Positions 3,900 to 13,586 of a stretch of DNA of 45,017 nucleotides are shown in pieces. The first letter of the stretch is position 1. Each line of letters opens with the position of its first letter. The DNA comes from an uncultured Opitutia bacterium. GTDB lineage: Bacteria; Verrucomicrobiota; Verrucomicrobiia; Opitutales; Opitutaceae. Location: assembly GCA_903830425.1 (NCBI GenBank), contig CAIKTR010000047.1, positions 1-45,017 of the forward strand, read 5' to 3'. The notes under the pieces were generated by a model. That model was not told the origin of the DNA and made no database searches. It worked only from the letters and a program-made list of their open reading frames with translations. The translations under genes and the position numbers were made by a program.

Positions 3900-4064
3900 T
3901 TACTTGATCTCCTTGTGCAGGGTGTGGCGCTTGAGGAAGGGATTGTACTTCTTCTTCTCGATGCGCTCGGTGACGGTTTTCTTGTTCCGCTTGGTCAGAT
4001 AGCGGGAGACGGGCTTGCCCTCTTTCTTGGCTTCAGTGCATTCCAGGGTGACGGTTTCGTTCAT
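3900..4064 (-). CDS. rpmG: 50S ribosomal protein L33
   Basis: A 54-residue basic protein, a structural component of the large ribosomal subunit near the E site. It contains [20 protein letters not shown] and ends with the conserved [15 protein letters not shown]. Only one cysteine is present, so this is the zinc-independent (C-minus) form of L33; the CxxC pairs of the zinc form are replaced. The ATG has an A/T-rich leader (TTTAAAA) and no Shine-Dalgarno sequence. It lies 67 bases downstream of the diadenylate cyclase gene on the same strand and is followed by a strong intrinsic terminator. It may be cotranscribed with that gene or have its own promoter in the AT-rich stretch at about 4065-4090. 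Confidence 0.95.
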
Positions 4065-4131: not shown

Positions 4132-5475
4132 CTAGCGCCGCTTCTCCGTCAGGGGCAGCATCACCCCGCGCCGGAAGAGCGTCACCTGGCCGGTGCTCGA
4201 TGACACCACGATGGCGATGCAGTTGGCGGCCAGGCTGATGGCCGCCGCCGCCGCATGCCGGCTGCCCAGCCCGCTCGGGAGCGAATGATCGCTGTCCGTC
4301 GCCTGGATCAGGCTGCCCGCGGACTCCACCACCCCATCGCCCCGGATCACAAAGGCCCCGTCAATCGAGGAAAACTCCTTCACGGTCTCGTCCATGAACG
4401 GATTGAGGATGTTGCGGTCCTCCTCCTTGTAGCCGTAAAAGGGGTTCAGCACGAGCGGCTTGGTGTACGCATCGACCTTCTCGATGTCGCCCACGACAAA
4501 CAGGCACCCCACCGGCCGGCCCTCGCGGCCCTCGACCGCCAGCTCGGTGGCGACCGCGATGACCCGCTCCAGGACCTCGGGCTTCACGTCGGCGGGCAGG
4601 AGGTCGGCCGTCTGGCCCGTGAGCAGCGTCTGGAACTCGCGCTCCACGTCCACCACCACCAGCGTGTCGAACTGGTTGCTCCCCGTCATGCCGCCGACGC
4701 AGCAGATGCGGTCGGTGAAGGCGATGACCCCGCGGGTGAGCGCCACCAGCATGGCGCTGCGGAGCTGGGCCAGCCGCTGGCTGGAAAACGAGCGCACCTG
4801 GATGGTCTCGGCAAACGTGTCCTGGTCCTCGCTGGGCTCGATCGGATTGCGCGTGACGAGGATGGTCTTGAGCCTGGAGCGCACGGTGCCGGACTCGATG
4901 CCGCCGATGAAGGTGTCGCCAAACACCATGATCGCCCCGCAGTCCGCGCCGCGGGCCACCCGCTCCGCCTCGCGGAACATGAGCCGGTTGACGCGGTTCT
5001 GCTGGGTCTGCACCGGGCGGATCCCGCCGAAGCCGCCGATCAGCCGCTCGTGGAGGGCGTCCAGGTCGGGGGCCGAGACCAGCTTGTCGACCAGCTCGGG
5101 CTCCTTGACCTGCCGGGCGATGGACGCGAGCACCTGCAGGTAGTCGCGCGCCCGGTCGCCCGCGATGAGCATGACGATGAGGTGCACCCGCTCGTCGCCC
5201 ACGGCGCCGTCATGGCGGACGCCCACGCGGCTCCGGCCAATCGCGAGCACGTAGCGCCGGCGCATCTTCACCCGGACGTGCGGCAGGGCGACCCCCAGGC
5301 CGAGGTAGGTCGTCATCGTGCTCTCGCGGGCCAGCAGGCCCCGGAGCAGCGCCTCGGGCTTCAGGTCGGGGAAGCGCTCGACGGAGACCGCCAGCAGCTC
5401 CTGCAGCGCCCCCTCGAGGTCCAGGCTCCGCAGGTCGATGATCCGGCTGCGGGAAATGATCTTGTCGAGTCGCAT
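4132..5475 (-). CDS. PTS EIIA-like / diadenylate cyclase (DAC, DisA_N) fusion protein
   Basis: A 447-residue soluble protein with three parts. Residues 1-150 resemble a type-2 PTS EIIA (PtsN/fructose type) domain with a candidate phospho-accepting His66 in GVALPHVRV. Residues 160-290 resemble the pyruvate-kinase-C-like alpha/beta domain described in front of archaeal DacZ cyclases (GADCGAIMVFGDTF, GVIAFTDRICCVGG). Residues 300-440 are a DAC domain with the DGA motif (372-374), the RH(A) counterpart of RHR at SRHAAA (405-410), and the IAIVVSSSTG strand. DAC domains make cyclic di-AMP from two ATP. The layout suggests that second-messenger synthesis is tuned by a phosphotransfer or nutrient signal. 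No membrane segment is seen, unlike CdaA. Domain calls are by motif; His66 phosphorylation is inferred. Confidence 0.85.
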   Translation of the reverse strand: MRLDKIISRSRIIDLRSLDLEGALQELLAVSVERFPDLKPEALLRGLLARESTMTTYLGLGVALPHVRVKMRRRYVLAIGRSRVGVRHDGAVGDERVHLIVMLIAGDRARDYLQVLASIARQVKEPELVDKLVSAPDLDALHERLIGGFGGIRPVQTQQNRVNRLMFREAERVARGADCGAIMVFGDTFIGGIESGTVRSRLKTILVTRNPIEPSEDQDTFAETIQVRSFSSQRLAQLRSAMLVALTRGVIAFTDRICCVGGMTGSNQFDTLVVVDVEREFQTLLTGQTADLLPADVKPEVLERVIAVATELAVEGREGRPVGCLFVVGDIEKVDAYTKPLVLNPFYGYKEEDRNILNPFMDETVKEFSSIDGAFVIRGDGVVESAGSLIQATDSDHSLPSGLGSRHAAAAAISLAANCIAIVVSSSTGQVTLFRRGVMLPLTEKRR

Positions 5476-5488
5476 GGTCTAGTGGGCC

Positions 5489-5507
5489 CCGCCGCGGGGG
5501 GCGGCGG
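5489..5507 (-). promoter_or_regulatory. Leader hairpin of the diadenylate cyclase gene
   Basis: A perfect 7-bp GC stem (5489-5495 with 5501-5507) around a five-base loop, ending 13 bases before the start codon. It could mask the start or end the nuoA transcript, but it has no T run. In such GC-rich DNA chance hairpins are common. Confidence 0.3.
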
Positions 5508-5597
5508 CGCGCGGGCAACGGACGGGGCGGGCCGGGAGACGAGGCATCGGGAGGGTCAGGTTGGGCGGTGGCTCCCGCGGCTCAGCTCGCGCCGGCC

Positions 5598-5972
5598 TCA
5601 CGGCTCCCATTCCAGCGCGCCCTTCTTGATTTCGTAGACCAGGCCGAGCACGAGGACCCCGAGGAAGAACAGGATCGGGCCGAGGATGGGGATGTGCTGC
5701 GCGAGAAACTCGCGGTAGATGAAGGTCCACGGCACGAGGATGACGACCTCCAGGTCGAACAGCATGAAGAGCAGCGCGGTCAGGAAGAACTTCACCGAGA
5801 ACCGGGTGTGGAGCAGGCCCTCGGCGCGCACGCCGCACTCGTAGGCCGAGTCCTTGATCGGGCCGCCCCGGCTGCGCTGGCCGAGGGCATGGCTCGCGCC
5901 GATGATCAGCGCGGTAATGCCCGCCGCGAGCGCGGCCTGGATCAGAAAGGGGAGATAGGCGGCGGAGGTCAT
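5598..5972 (-). CDS. nuoA: NADH-quinone oxidoreductase subunit A
   Basis: A 124-residue inner-membrane subunit of respiratory complex I, with three transmembrane helices (about 8-28, 62-84 and 92-113). The family signature is clear: KDSAYECGVRAEG in the quinone-site loop, then TRFSVKFFLTALLFMLFDLE and PWTF. The conserved Cys (YECG) and the acidic FDLE residues are present. The length is normal. The gene stands alone: no nuoB, nuoC or nuoD follows on this strand, whereas nuoA normally opens the nuo operon. The remaining subunits must be encoded elsewhere. The leader contains no Shine-Dalgarno sequence. Confidence 0.95.
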   Translation of the reverse strand: MTSAAYLPFLIQAALAAGITALIIGASHALGQRSRGGPIKDSAYECGVRAEGLLHTRFSVKFFLTALLFMLFDLEVVILVPWTFIYREFLAQHIPILGPILFFLGVLVLGLVYEIKKGALEWEP

Positions 5973-6017: not shown

Positions 6018-7067
6018 TTATTTCACCACCGGGATGAATTTCGCGGACGCGATGTGGGTCGAGCCCACGCCCAGCGTCTCGGCGAACTCGAGGGTGCGGA
6101 TCTCCTCGGAGATCGGCTCGAAGCCGGACTGCTTCCGCAGGCCGTTGATCCGGCTGCGCATCAGGGAGTCAAGCAGCACCGGGTCGGTGCTCAGCCAGAG
6201 CAGCGGCTCCGACGCCGAGTAGAGCGAGTTGAAGTAGGGCCCGCCGATGAACTGGTAGTGTTCCAGGCTCACCAGCGAGAACATCCAGGTCTGCCGCAGC
6301 TCGGGGATGGCGCTCATCTCGGCGACGGCCGCGGGGGCGTTGGCGGGCGAGCGGAAGAAGCGGCCGGTGTTGGAGGCGTTCCACAGCGTGGCGTTCACCA
6401 GGGCCCCGTTCACCCCCAGCATCGGGTGGTCGGTGTAGACCGGCAGGTTGATCCAGAAGTCGGCGTCGAGAAACAGCGGCGTGGCGAGGAAGCTCTTGCG
6501 ATCCTCGTCCTTGGTCGAGTGGTTCGGAAAATCCTTCGTCTGCTGCTCCGCCAGGATCGGGTCGAACCGCTGCGGCAGCGGGCTGTCGTAGAACCAGACC
6601 GGATCGTAGAACTTGCCCGTCTCGAGCACGAAGACCTTGTGCCCCTGGAAGGGCGTCTCCCCCGTCACCAGCGACGGCAGGTAGCCGGTCATGCGCAGCC
6701 GCAGCTGGTTGAGGCCGACCAAAAAGATGTTCCCCGGCTCGAATCCCCGGCGCACCAGCGCGGCGATGACCGCCTTCACCAGCGGCACGGGCGTGGCCAT
6801 GCCGGGGCCGGAATCGGTGTAGATTTTCAGGCCGGCCTTTTTCTTCAGGCCCGGCACCAGCTTCTTCCCCGACGTCGCCTCGAAGCGCGCGATCAGCGCC
6901 TCGACATCCTGGGCGTAGGTCGCGTCGTCAAACGCCGTGAGCTGGGCCTGCCAGACCGGCTCGTTCGAGGGCGTCCGCGGCACGGCCACCTCGGCGCCGC
7001 CCACCGGGAGCAGCGGAAGGACGACGGCGGCCGCGGCCAGGATAAACGAGGGGGAGAGGAGGCGCAT
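6018..7067 (-). CDS. Exported DUF362-like protein
   Basis: A 349-residue protein with an N-terminal signal peptide (hydrophobic residues 6-20, likely cleavage near GGA). The body has features recalled from DUF362 proteins: PLVKAVIAALVRRGFEPGNI, a WINLPVYTDHPMLGVNGALVN segment resembling the conserved peptide around the family's HxxxG site, and a C-terminal sLLDSLMRSRINGLR stretch. DUF362 proteins have no firm biochemical role; some are linked to ferredoxins, but no cysteine cluster is visible here. The start at 7067 was chosen because the 74 codons upstream are basic, lack a signal and cross the dnaG promoter region. It is divergent from dnaG. Confidence 0.7.
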   Translation of the reverse strand: MRLLSPSFILAAAAVVLPLLPVGGAEVAVPRTPSNEPVWQAQLTAFDDATYAQDVEALIARFEATSGKKLVPGLKKKAGLKIYTDSGPGMATPVPLVKAVIAALVRRGFEPGNIFLVGLNQLRLRMTGYLPSLVTGETPFQGHKVFVLETGKFYDPVWFYDSPLPQRFDPILAEQQTKDFPNHSTKDEDRKSFLATPLFLDADFWINLPVYTDHPMLGVNGALVNATLWNASNTGRFFRSPANAPAAVAEMSAIPELRQTWMFSLVSLEHYQFIGGPYFNSLYSASEPLLWLSTDPVLLDSLMRSRINGLRKQSGFEPISEEIRTLEFAETLGVGSTHIASAKFIPVVK

Positions 7068-7122
7068 AGGATGAGATGAGTCGCCCAAAAACCGGCAATG
7101 TTTCCTCGGCGAGCCGCGAAAC

Positions 7123-7128
7123 TTGACA
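7123..7128 (+). promoter_or_regulatory. Putative -35 element for dnaG-rpoD
   Basis: A perfect TTGACA stands 52 bases before the dnaG start, in the divergent gap 7068-7179. No good TATAAT-like box follows at 17 bases (AAAGTG), so the promoter call is tentative. Confidence 0.35.
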
Positions 7129-7179
7129 GTCTCCCCGCTGGGTTGAAAGTGCATTCTTCGCGCGCCCCCCGCCCCGCCC

Positions 7180-9039
7180 ATGCCCGTCATCAAGCCCACC
7201 TGTGTCCGCGACCTCAAGTTGCGCGTGAATCTGGCCGACGTGGTGTCGCGGGTGGTCACCCTGAAGAAGGCCGGCGCCGGACGGCTCAAGGGCCTGTGCC
7301 CGTTTCACAACGAAAAGACGCCGTCCTTCAACGTCGACGCCGACAAGGGGTTCTACAAGTGCTTCGGCTGCGGCAAGGCGGGCGACCTGATCTCGTTCGT
7401 GCGCGAGACCGAGCAGCTCGGCTTCACCGAGGCCGTCGAGGCGCTCGGGCAGCGCTTCAACGTCGTGATCGAATACGAGGCGGGCTCCGGCGGGCCCAGC
7501 CGCGAGGAGCGCTCGCTCCGGCAGGAGATCTTCGACCTCCACGAGCTCGCGGCCGAGCACTACCACCAGGCCTTCAAGGCGGCCACCCCCACCGGCGAGT
7601 TCATGCGCAGCTACTGGGTGGAACAGCGCCGCTTTGACCCCGCCCTGGCCGACGAATTCAAGATCGGCGCCGCGGCCGCGGTCGACGAGGGGCTCGGCGC
7701 CCTGCTGCTCCGGCGGAAGTTCTCCGAGGAGGCGATCCGCCAGTGCGGCCTGTTCTTCGTCCGCGACGGCGCCCTGCTCACGCTCGGCTCCCTCAAGCCG
7801 CGCTTCCGCGGCCGCCTGATGATCCCCATCCGCGACCACCAGGGGCGCGTCGTGGCGTTCACCGCGCGCCAGACCGGCCTCACCCCCGCCGACGACCCGG
7901 CCCGCGAGGCCAAGTACGTCAACTCGCCCGAAACCCCGGTGTTCACCAAGGGCCACCTGCTCTTCAACCTGGACCGCGCCCGCACCGCCGTCGGCGAGGG
8001 CCGCCCCTTCCTCCTGGTCGAGGGCCAGCTCGACGCCCTCCGCTGCTGGAGCGTCGGGCTCAAGGCCGCCCTCGCTCCGCAGGGCACCTCCATCACCGAG
8101 CCGCAGCTCGTGCTGCTGCGCCGCTACCACACCCAGGTCGAGTGCCTGCTCGACGGCGACAGCGCCGGCCAGAAGGCCGCGCTGCGCTTCCTCCCCATGG
8201 CCCTGAAGGCCGGGCTCGAGGTCCGGTTCCTCCTGCTCGCGCCCGGGGACGACCCCGACTCGCTCTTCCGCGAGCGCGGCCTGGCCGCCTACGAAGAGCT
8301 GCGGCGCGGCGCCCTCTCCGCCATGGCGTTCGCCTGCCGCGCCGCCCTGCCCGATCCCGGCGCCGCCTCGGCCGAGCTCAAGACGCGCGCCGCCCAGACC
8401 CTGCTGGAGCTCGTCGCCGCCGCCGAGGGCGAGGTGGCGCGGTCGGAGTTTCTCGCCGAGGCCGCCGCGCATCTCCGGCTGGCTCCCGCCGCCCTGCAGC
8501 GGGATTTCCAGTCCCTGCTCGCCCGCCAGAGCCGGCAGGCGGCCGGCCGGCCGGCCGCCGCCCACCCGGCCCCCGCCCCGGCCGCGGCCAACACCGGCCA
8601 GAGCCCGGAACACCACCTCCTCATCCTCTGCCTCCACTTCGAGGCCCTCGGCAAAGCCCTGGCCGCCGCGCTGCCCCACGAGTGGATCGACCCCTCCCAC
8701 CCCGCCGGCGTCCTCCTCAGCCGGTTCCTCGGCGAGTTCGAGCACGACACCTGGCCCGGCCGCGACCATCTCGACCCCCTGCTGGAAACCGCGGACGAAA
8801 AGACCCTGGCCGCCTCCCTGCTGTTTGACCGGCCGGCGATCGACGACCCGGTCAAGGTGGCCACCGAGGGGCTGCGCCAGCTGCGCACCCGCGCCCTCGA
8901 ACCCCGCCTCCGGCAAATAGAACTTGCTTTAGCCAACCACGGTGCGGACAGTAAATCTGACCCAATTTCACTCTTAAAAGAACGTTCTGATCTTCAACGC
9001 CAGCTCCGCCAGCCGCTGCTCCTGCCGTCGGCGGTTTAG
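7180..9039 (+). CDS. dnaG: DNA primase
   Basis: A 619-residue primase that lays down RNA primers at the replication fork. The N-terminal CHC2 zinc-binding domain has Cys40, His43, Cys61 and Cys64 ([11 protein letters not shown], then [10 protein letters not shown]). The catalytic core follows, with [20 protein letters not shown] (211-230). The TOPRIM domain carries Glu281 (VEGQLDAL) and Asp325-Gly-Asp327 ([12 protein letters not shown]). The region from about 430 on is the helicase-interacting part, interrupted by an Ala/Pro-rich linker at 530-555. rpoD follows after 26 bases, the dnaG-rpoD part of the macromolecular synthesis operon; rpsU is not present here. The ATG has a C-rich leader and no Shine-Dalgarno sequence. 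Confidence 0.97.
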
Positions 9040-11267: not shown

Positions 11268-13586
11268 CTAGCCCGCCCCGTCCGCCACGGCTTCCCCCGG
11301 GGTCGCCCGCAGCCACTCCTGGAACGCGTGGATCTGGGTCGGTGCCCCCAGAATCAGCACCTCGTCGCCGGCCTGCAGCCGCTCCTCCGCGGAGGGGTTC
11401 AGGCTGCGGCAGCCGCGGCGGTTGATCCCCGCGATCTGCACGCCGTGCGCCCGGGCCGGGGCCAGGTCGGCCAGCGTGCGCCCCGCCGCGCGACTGCCCG
11501 CCGGCAGCAGCAGCGTCTCCATCCGGACCTCCTCGGGCAGGGCATCCGCCACGCCTGAGACGCCGCCAAGGCAGGTCTTGCCCGCCCGCACCTGCTCCAC
11601 CGTGCCCATCAGCAGCACGCGGTCGCGGGGGTAAAGCACGGCGTCCGGCGGCGGCAGCGGGATCATGAAGCCCTGCCGCTCAATGCCGACCACCGAGCAG
11701 CCGAAGCGGGCGCGCAGATCCAGCTCCGCGATCTTCCGGCCCTGCGCATCGGCCAGGTCCGGCAGCACGCAGTCGACCAGGTGCAGGTGCCAGTCCCCGT
11801 GCGGCTGCAGCCAGGGAGCCGAAGTCGCGCTCATCTGGCCCTCGGCCGAGGTCATCACCTCCTGCAACTCCACCTCCAGCTGGCTGTGCCAGAAGACCAG
11901 CTTCCGCCAGAGCACCGTCAGCGCGACCAGCGCCACCAGCACGCTCGCCAGCAGCAGCCAGCGGGCGTTGTCGCCGCTCGGCAGCAGCACAAACAGCCAG
12001 ACAAAGATCGCCGTGCCCGCCAGGGACTTGAGCACGGTCTCGACCATGGGCGCGAGCCGGGCGGCGCGCGGGTGGCCCGCCGTCGACACCTGCGCATAGA
12101 GCAGCGCCAGGGCGGAGCCGTTGCGCCAGATCGCCACCAGCGGGGCCAGCAGCCCGAGGCAGAGGGTGATCCAGAAGACCACCTGGAGCCCGTGGGGAAA
12201 CAGCCAGTCCCGCCCCAGCCACCTCTCCGCGGCCGCCCGCAGCTGGCCGGAAAACACCAGCAGACCGCTGACCAGCAGCACCTCCACCCCGATCTGCACC
12301 AGCCGCTTCCGGCTCAGCTGCCAGAGCCGGTTGCGCTGCGCCTGGGCCTGCCATTGGTCGAGCCACTCGCGGTAATAGCGGAGCGCATCCGCCAGCCACC
12401 GCGGCTGCCGCGCCAGCAGCGCGTCCGCGATCGGCGCGGACCGCCGCACCAGCACCGGCGCCACCAGCGTGGTCAGCAGCGACGCGCCGACCGCCAGCGG
12501 GTAGAAGTTCGCCGGGACGACCGCCGCCGTCACCCCGAGTTGCGCGATGATGAAGGAGAACTCGCCGATCGGCGTGAGCGCCAGGCCGGCGCGCAGCGCC
12601 TCCCGCGGCGCGGTGCCGACGAGGGTCAGCGCCGTGGTGCACGCCAGGCAGCGCGCGACCAGCGTGAAGACCGCCACCCCCGCAATCAGGCCGGCGGACG
12701 CCACCAGCTCGTGGAGGTTGATCTGCAGCCCGATCGCGACGAAAAACACCGCGCTGAACACGTCGCGCATCCCCTCGAAGGTGCGCTCCACCTGGTGCCG
12801 GTGCGGCGTCTCGGCCACGATCGTGCCGAGCAGGAACGCGCCGAGCGCGAGCGAGTAGCCCGCCTGCTGCGCCACCACCGCCAGGCCGAAGAGCAGGCCC
12901 GCGATCCCCAGCGTCTGCAGCTCCTCGTCCGCCGAGCGGCTCATCCGCCGCAGCAGCCAGGGGACCAGCAGCAGGCCGCCCACGCCGGCCAGCGCGACAA
13001 ACGCCCCGAGCCGGCCCAGCGTCTCGCCCAGCGGGGCCGCCGCCCCGTGGCCGGCGCCGCCCAGCTGCACCAGCGAGTTGAGGAGCGTCAGCATCACGAC
13101 CGCCACCACGTCCTCGAGCACCGCCACCCCCATCGCGAGCTGGCCCGCCCGCTCGTGGTTCTCCCCGGTTTCCTGCAGGATCTTGCTGACGATGGCCGAG
13201 GACGAGACCATCAGCATGCCGGCGAGGAAGAGGGTCTCCGTGCCGCCCCAGCCGAGGGCCGCGCCGAGCAGCCGGGTGAGGTAAAACACCACCAGCGCCC
13301 CGCCGACGGTCGCGAGCAGCAGCGAGAGCCCGAGCCGGCGCAGCTTCCGCACGCTCAGCCGCAGCCCGATGGAGAACATCAGGAAGACCAGGCCGACCTG
13401 CGCCAGCGTCTCGATCCGGCCCGGGTCCGACACGAGCGAAAAGGGCGGCGTGTAGGGCCCGACCACCATGCCCGCGGCCAGGAACCCCACCACCACCGAC
13501 AGGCCGAGGCGCTGGCAGACCCAGCCCACCGCCCCCGCCACCACCAGAATCACCGCGAGATCTTGGATGAAATCGATGCCGTGCAT
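11268..13586 (-). CDS. CPA2-family cation/proton antiporter with TrkA-C-like domains
   Basis: A 772-residue inner-membrane protein. Residues 1-385 form a KefB/NhaS3-like Na+/H+ exchanger domain with about 12 membrane helices. Typical segments are GFLAAGMVVGPYTPP, MFSIGLRLSVRKL, SSSAIVSKIL, GVAVLEDVVAVVML (the paired acidic residues), FVAIGLQINLHEL and LTPIGEFSFIIAQLG. A helical hairpin with further membrane segments (about 440-575) links to two cytoplasmic RCK/TrkA-C-like regions, about 610-680 (LPDLADAQGRKIAELDL) and 690-765 (LPAGSRAAGRTLADL). RCK_C domains usually gate transport in response to ligands. Transported ion (K+ or Na+) cannot be told. The weak GAGGGA before the ATG is one of the few Shine-Dalgarno-like sequences here. 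Confidence 0.9.
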   Translation of the reverse strand: MHGIDFIQDLAVILVVAGAVGWVCQRLGLSVVVGFLAAGMVVGPYTPPFSLVSDPGRIETLAQVGLVFLMFSIGLRLSVRKLRRLGLSLLLATVGGALVVFYLTRLLGAALGWGGTETLFLAGMLMVSSSAIVSKILQETGENHERAGQLAMGVAVLEDVVAVVMLTLLNSLVQLGGAGHGAAAPLGETLGRLGAFVALAGVGGLLLVPWLLRRMSRSADEELQTLGIAGLLFGLAVVAQQAGYSLALGAFLLGTIVAETPHRHQVERTFEGMRDVFSAVFFVAIGLQINLHELVASAGLIAGVAVFTLVARCLACTTALTLVGTAPREALRAGLALTPIGEFSFIIAQLGVTAAVVPANFYPLAVGASLLTTLVAPVLVRRSAPIADALLARQPRWLADALRYYREWLDQWQAQAQRNRLWQLSRKRLVQIGVEVLLVSGLLVFSGQLRAAAERWLGRDWLFPHGLQVVFWITLCLGLLAPLVAIWRNGSALALLYAQVSTAGHPRAARLAPMVETVLKSLAGTAIFVWLFVLLPSGDNARWLLLASVLVALVALTVLWRKLVFWHSQLEVELQEVMTSAEGQMSATSAPWLQPHGDWHLHLVDCVLPDLADAQGRKIAELDLRARFGCSVVGIERQGFMIPLPPPDAVLYPRDRVLLMGTVEQVRAGKTCLGGVSGVADALPEEVRMETLLLPAGSRAAGRTLADLAPARAHGVQIAGINRRGCRSLNPSAEERLQAGDEVLILGAPTQIHAFQEWLRATPGEAVADGAG

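Follow-up and report, generated by a model that had tools for sequence, protein, structure and literature searches.

A 447-aa protein encoded by an uncultured Opitutia bacterium joins an EIIA domain of the phosphotransferase system (PTS) to a diadenylate cyclase (DAC) domain through a pyruvate-kinase-C-like DacZ_P domain, and it probably makes the bacterial messenger cyclic di-AMP (c-di-AMP). With moderate confidence, we propose that PTS phosphorylation of His66 in the EIIA domain tunes the cell's sole c-di-AMP synthase, and hence potassium and osmolyte transport. The proposal draws on sequence: the three domains, the conservation of His66, the single cyclase, an EI, HPr, and HPr kinase encoded without a PF02378 permease, and the c-di-AMP riboswitches of relatives. 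From these we infer catalysis, phosphorylation of His66, an effect of that phosphorylation on activity, and the direction of the effect. The gene lies in the window (the whole stretch of DNA analysed, 45,017 nucleotides) with the following features:

4132..5475, minus strand: dac gene, ATG start, 447 aa, EIIA type 2, DacZ_P, and DAC domains
5041..5421, minus strand: PTS_EIIA_2 domain, residues 19-145 (Pfam 60.8 bits, cut-off 27)
4627..4998, minus strand: DacZ_P domain, residues 160-283, pyruvate-kinase-C-like fold (Pfam 110.9 bits, cut-off 27.4)
4162..4539, minus strand: DAC (diadenylate cyclase) domain, residues 313-438 (Pfam 75.0 bits, cut-off 27)
5278..5280, minus strand: codon of His66, candidate phospho-histidine, aligned with the PtsN His
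5140..5142, minus strand: codon of Tyr112, which replaces the second His of PtsN in the PtsN alignment

The first-pass annotation had described the protein as an EIIA domain, a pyruvate-kinase-C-like region, and a DAC domain. This description held both in Pfam, where the 447-aa protein exceeds the curated cut-off for all three domains, and in structure prediction. By predicted fold, residues 1-151 resemble EIIA-Ntr (1a6j_A; Z 20.4, rmsd 2.1, 147 residues aligned) and residues 290-442 resemble DisA (9y4s_D; Z 16.4, rmsd 2.4, 130 aligned). A separate model of the DacZ_P domain resembles the C-terminal region of pyruvate kinases (5wrp_C; Z 12.7, rmsd 2.9, 120 aligned). Searches of solved structures by sequence and by fold likewise placed the N-terminal part nearest to PtsN (EIIA-Ntr) and the C-terminal part nearest to DisA and CdaA. 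Pfam names the middle domain "Probable sensor domain DacZ_P". The full-length model has a mean pLDDT of 75.4 and a pTM of 0.41, so the arrangement of the domains in it is unreliable. A chance open reading frame at 4132-5475 was ruled out by family conservation: in an alignment reaching down to 30% identity, DacZ_P and DAC were both matched in 60/60 members. A 460-aa open frame at 4255-5637 on the plus strand, antisense to nearly the whole cyclase gene, is probably a by-product of high GC content.

We examined the catalytic residues in an alignment of 140 rows (147 loci of relatives minus 8 duplicates, i.e., 139, plus the query). The DGA motif at residues 372-374 and SRHAAA at 405-410, both reported at first pass, are present in the translation, and with them the DGA and the Arg-His of GxRHRxA that mark the DAC family. 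Asp372, Gly373, Arg406, His407, and Ser425 are invariant (140/140 rows), and Ala374 is found in 132/140. The third Arg of RHR, a typical DAC residue, is Ala408 in the cyclase; this position is an Ala in 131/140 rows and an Arg in 0/140. Where CdaA has Glu124 (the SEE motif's second Glu), all 140 rows have a Ser. In the available text of PMC7288161, the ten residues listed for the ATP site of CdaA include Glu124 and do not include the third Arg of RHR. Taken by its residues, the DAC domain is likely to be catalytically active.

The phospho-accepting His of EIIA type 2 domains (PF00359) is present as His66, which lines up with the "PHGR" histidine of the Burkholderia PtsN structures 4gqx and 3urr, where the earlier reading had put it. 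Tyr112 falls on the second His of Burkholderia PtsN in the same manner; a second active-site His is typical of PTS EIIA type 2 domains, and we did not take it as defining. Among the 136 rows with an EIIA domain, residue 66 is a His in 132, the exceptions being two Ser, one Tyr, and one Cys; residue 112 is a Tyr in 125, the others being six Thr, two Leu, two Phe, and one His. Rows in which the EIIA is less than 60% identical to that of the window's cyclase retain His66 in 27/31 cases and Arg50 in 30/31. By conservation, His66, Arg50, Glu51, and Arg68 all rank in the top 16 of the 136 EIIA positions, the pattern expected for a phospho-site.

The four rows of 136 that lack His66 retain the protein, and their genomes still encode EI and HPr. 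In a tree of the DacZ_P and DAC parts (56 rows), these rows require two changes, corresponding to a clade of three (family f3) and the single row L147; they formed a single group in 0/200 bootstrap trees, and their exact places are unsure because of long branches. EIIA identity in the His-less f3 group falls to 23-31%, a fall that proves little by itself because L145 and the f30 rows retain His66 at 28-31%. We take these data as evidence that the phospho-site is maintained in most lineages, as judged from alignment and tree, yet is not indispensable. The EIIA domain as a whole was matched in 55/60 aligned family members and is not part of every one, since 4/60 (L124, L138, L150, and L152) lack it or are cut before it and retain DacZ_P and DAC. 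L150 is an EIIA-less DacZ_P-DAC protein of 300 aa that co-occurs with a full-length fusion in a genome of the order (G172). The DacZ_P-DAC frame L152:2-832 lies at a contig start; its opening stretch looks GroEL-like by eye, which suggests a chimera or a fault of assembly.

The related loci from genome contigs were the best 80 of 173, and three alignments drew on the relatives. A1 comprised P0001 and 75 of these 80 loci (L076 was cut; L004, L005, L008, and L012 were omitted), A2 comprised 60 of the 68 DacZ_P places (the 8 omitted were duplicates of genome-contig loci), and A3 comprised the window and 70 of the same best 80 of 173. Across 387 sampled genomes of the phylum, DacZ_P occurs in 67. 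The window's order (Opitutales in the wide sense) accounts for 59 of them, out of 63 genomes sampled. The DacZ_P protein is the sole diadenylate cyclase found in 56 of the 59 carriers of the order; the other three (G223, G310, and G172) have a second DAC. In each of the eight carriers that fall outside the order, a frame of 280-337 aa gives a further and stronger DAC match, which may be CdaA-like. Within the order, family f3 includes three genomes (G102, G298, and G384) that yielded neither a DAC nor a PgpH-type protein, an apparent loss of c-di-AMP signalling.

The first-pass annotation called for a check of EI and HPr, and the genome of the window encodes both: EI, HPr, and HPr kinase occur once each, alongside three EIIA_2 domains. 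No GAF match was found in its EI. The permease search covered the PF02378 family (PTS_EIIC), of which no member was found in the window's genome; members are present in 7/71 related genomes. The PTS of this organism is probably regulatory, as suggested by genes for EI, HPr, and HPr kinase in a genome where PTS_EIIC (PF02378) was not found. EI is encoded in 71/71 related genomes and HPr in 70/71, the one miss being a genome without a DAC (G146); HPr kinase was found in all 33 genomes searched out of the 71. Since EI and HPr are nearly universal, co-occurrence of His66 with them carries no information, and we discarded it as a test. Two further EIIA_2 proteins are encoded besides the cyclase. 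One is a stand-alone, PtsN-like protein of 154 aa (L083) that has the second-site His by eye. The other, the EIIA paralogue at L082:877-1950 on the plus strand, is the one that matches the cyclase by sequence (40.9 bits). By eye, this paralogue carries a Tyr where the second active-site His would be, and a CorA-like gene follows it.

We then compared the protein with named systems. Its EIIA domain resembles PtsN (EIIA-Ntr) in fold, in the position of the phospho-His, and in Arg50; unlike PtsN, it is fused to a cyclase and has a Tyr for the second His, and the lack of a GAF match in the genome's EI is a further point of difference. Against the PtsN equivalog TIGR01419 the protein scores 40.6 bits (cut-off 138.7), so it is not PtsN itself. 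With CdaA (DacA) it shares the DAC domain, DGA, and RH, but it carries EIIA and DacZ_P at its N terminus, reads RHA instead of RHR, and reaches 32.7 bits against the CdaA equivalog (cut-off 188.8). The likeness to DacZ/CdaZ (DacY) lies in the middle domain, which has a PK_C fold, matches Pfam DacZ_P, and precedes the DAC domain; the additional N-terminal EIIA domain sets the window's cyclase apart, and residues 216-439 match the haloarchaeal DacZ equivalog NF041371 at 119.8 bits, far below its cut-off of 430. Archaeal DacZ is a diadenylate cyclase that is essential in Haloferax (PMC6741144). Laboratory E. coli has no DAC proteins (PMC9465037).

A fourth class is closer by taxonomy. "DacD" is a bacterial cyclase class that had been identified before PMC6741144, which in its available text lists as representatives Lacunisphaera limnophila first, then a Puniceicoccaceae bacterium, Coraliomargarita sp., a Verrucomicrobia bacterium, and an Opitutae bacterium. 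Lacunisphaera limnophila, the source of A0A1D8AXP5, belongs to the Opitutaceae and Coraliomargarita to the class Opitutia. The window's cyclase is probably DacD, an assignment made by taxonomy (the listed Opitutia representatives) and by its being the sole DAC found in 56/59 carriers of the order; on that footing, no differences from DacD are shown. The domains, His66, and EI and HPr of the earlier interpretation stand, whereas its claim of a cyclase outside the known classes probably does not, given the Opitutia proteins listed as DacD in PMC6741144 and the existence of DacZ_P in Pfam. Titles and the starts of abstracts from the open-licence literature showed no diadenylate cyclase with a PTS EIIA domain. 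"All DACs in a Row" (J Bacteriol 2023) reportedly uses N-terminal domains to sort DAC families, and one that bears an EIIA is probably among them; the EIIA-DacZ_P-DAC architecture has probably been described already. Our own contribution is to provide evidence that a phospho-site has been maintained on the sole cyclase found in most genomes of the order, beside a permease-poor PTS.

Indirect evidence for use of c-di-AMP came from relatives. The c-di-AMP riboswitch RF00379 occurs in 6/71 related genomes, all in the window's family, and the sole DAC found in these six is the EIIA-DacZ_P-DAC protein. The riboswitch was not found in the genome of the window, as in 65 of the 71 genomes, under strict filters and with 39 of 54 first-look candidates scored; within the window, no Rfam family reached its gathering score. 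We took four of the six riboswitch loci and scanned three of the downstream genes. One encodes a Kup potassium transporter (K_trans, 554 bits), another a permease for amino acids (AA_permease_2), and the last a Band_7 protein; by eye, the fourth locus looks like the second. A 7TM-7TMR_HD protein, a domain that we take to mark the c-di-AMP phosphodiesterase PgpH, is encoded in 58/67 genomes with the cyclase (that of the window included) and in 1/4 without it (Fisher p 0.014, uncorrected for kinship); the association amounts to few events because three of the four cyclase-less genomes are in one family, f3. The PgpH-type protein is missing from 9/67 carriers, two of which have the riboswitch. 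The window itself encodes a candidate effector, which the first-pass annotation had named as a potential target:

11268..13586, minus strand: cation/proton antiporter with two TrkA_C (RCK_C) stretches (Na_H_Exchanger 205.8 bits, TrkA_C 99.7 bits)

The antiporter is real by these scores, and it is a possible c-di-AMP target; the riboswitch before Kup in a relative points to a better-supported output.

The genes next to the cyclase offered little functional guidance:

5598..5972, minus strand: nuoA-like gene (NADH dehydrogenase chain 3), directly upstream of the cyclase (Oxidored_q4 93.8 bits)
3900..4064, minus strand: rpmG (ribosomal protein L33, named by eye), directly downstream of the cyclase

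An initial clustering of neighborhoods was swamped by antisense open reading frames of this GC-rich genome, and a gene-by-gene count was used instead. The nuoA-like gene is upstream on the same strand in 72/80 loci (best 80 of 173) and 53/67 related loci, where the misses include loci cut by contig ends, and rpmG is downstream on the same strand in 64/80 (best 80 of 173) and 35/67. Neither is a PTS or a potassium gene, and we set the neighborhood aside as a hint to function. The frame at 6018-7289 (minus strand) upstream of the nuoA-like gene recurs in 68/80 (best 80 of 173) and 32/67 related loci. It has no Pfam match, so no further nuo gene adjoins the nuoA-like gene in that direction.

How might the domains work together? 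In our proposal, a regulatory PTS would phosphorylate the N-terminal EIIA domain on His66 through its EI and HPr, and the pyruvate-kinase-C-like DacZ_P domain would relay the phosphorylation state of the EIIA so as to change DAC pairing and therefore the rate of the cyclase. The C-terminal DAC domain would convert two ATP to c-di-AMP, which would then tune potassium and osmolyte transport. There is precedent by analogy: head-to-head pairing is required of DAC domains, and CdaA is inhibited by GlmM, which blocks that pairing (PMC8573169). The phosphorylation state of PtsN controls potassium transport in several proteobacteria (PMC9239096, PMC13104625), and E. coli PtsN binds TrkA, KdpD, and YcgO (PMC13104625). 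That phosphorylation of His66 may alter DAC pairing is the simplest joint reading of these observations. Several results speak against the proposal: the two losses of His66, the Tyr at the second site, the members without an EIIA, the Ala and Ser at the third Arg of RHR and the Glu124 position, the riboswitch not found in the window's genome or in 65 of 71, the nine carriers lacking a PgpH-type protein, neighbours that are not PTS genes, and the unreliable domain arrangement in the model.

Other arrangements of the same parts can be drawn. The EIIA might be a non-phosphorylated docking or dimerisation module, with a ligand of DacZ_P regulating the cyclase and His66 kept for structure or by ancestry. 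Such a module would fit the loss of His66 from two lineages in which the protein stays, the Tyr at the second His, and the EIIA-less DacZ_P-DAC proteins, and the PK_C fold takes allosteric ligands in pyruvate kinase (PMC6741144). It does not sit well with the ranking of His66, Arg50, Glu51, and Arg68 among the most conserved EIIA positions, nor with the long branches of the His-less rows and the low EIIA identity in f3; on balance, we think it rather unlikely.

The fusion could also act in the opposite sense, the EIIA binding potassium transporters or their regulators as PtsN does and thereby placing c-di-AMP synthesis beside those targets. The E. coli contacts of PtsN (PMC13104625) and the TrkA_C antiporter in the window speak for this, but two other EIIA_2 proteins in the genome, among them the stand-alone PtsN-like one, could fill that role, and we judge it improbable. 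Lastly, a catalytically dead DAC domain that binds c-di-AMP instead of making it is suggested by RHA in place of RHR and by the Ser at the SEE position that belongs to the ATP site of CdaA. We give this very little credence: the five invariant residues, the finding of no other DAC in the six riboswitch-bearing genomes, and the absence of the third Arg from the ATP-site residues listed for CdaA (PMC7288161, available text) all argue for an active enzyme.

We therefore return to phosphorylation of His66 as the preferred control of the cyclase. To our knowledge, the signals that control c-di-AMP synthesis are open for many cyclases; here, the EIIA domain singles out EI and HPr as the pathway upstream. 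This lead, together with a cyclase that is the only one found and natural His66-less variants as controls, makes the question directly testable with purified proteins. In other bacteria, potassium transport is subject to both PtsN and c-di-AMP, which this cyclase joins. Extended to the whole order, the odds seem to us evenly balanced that a PTS relay directly sets the sole c-di-AMP synthase, bringing nutrient and potassium control together, with the two His-losing lineages uncoupled. If true, a link between nutrients and potassium that elsewhere runs via separate contacts between PtsN and transporters would sit in one polypeptide.
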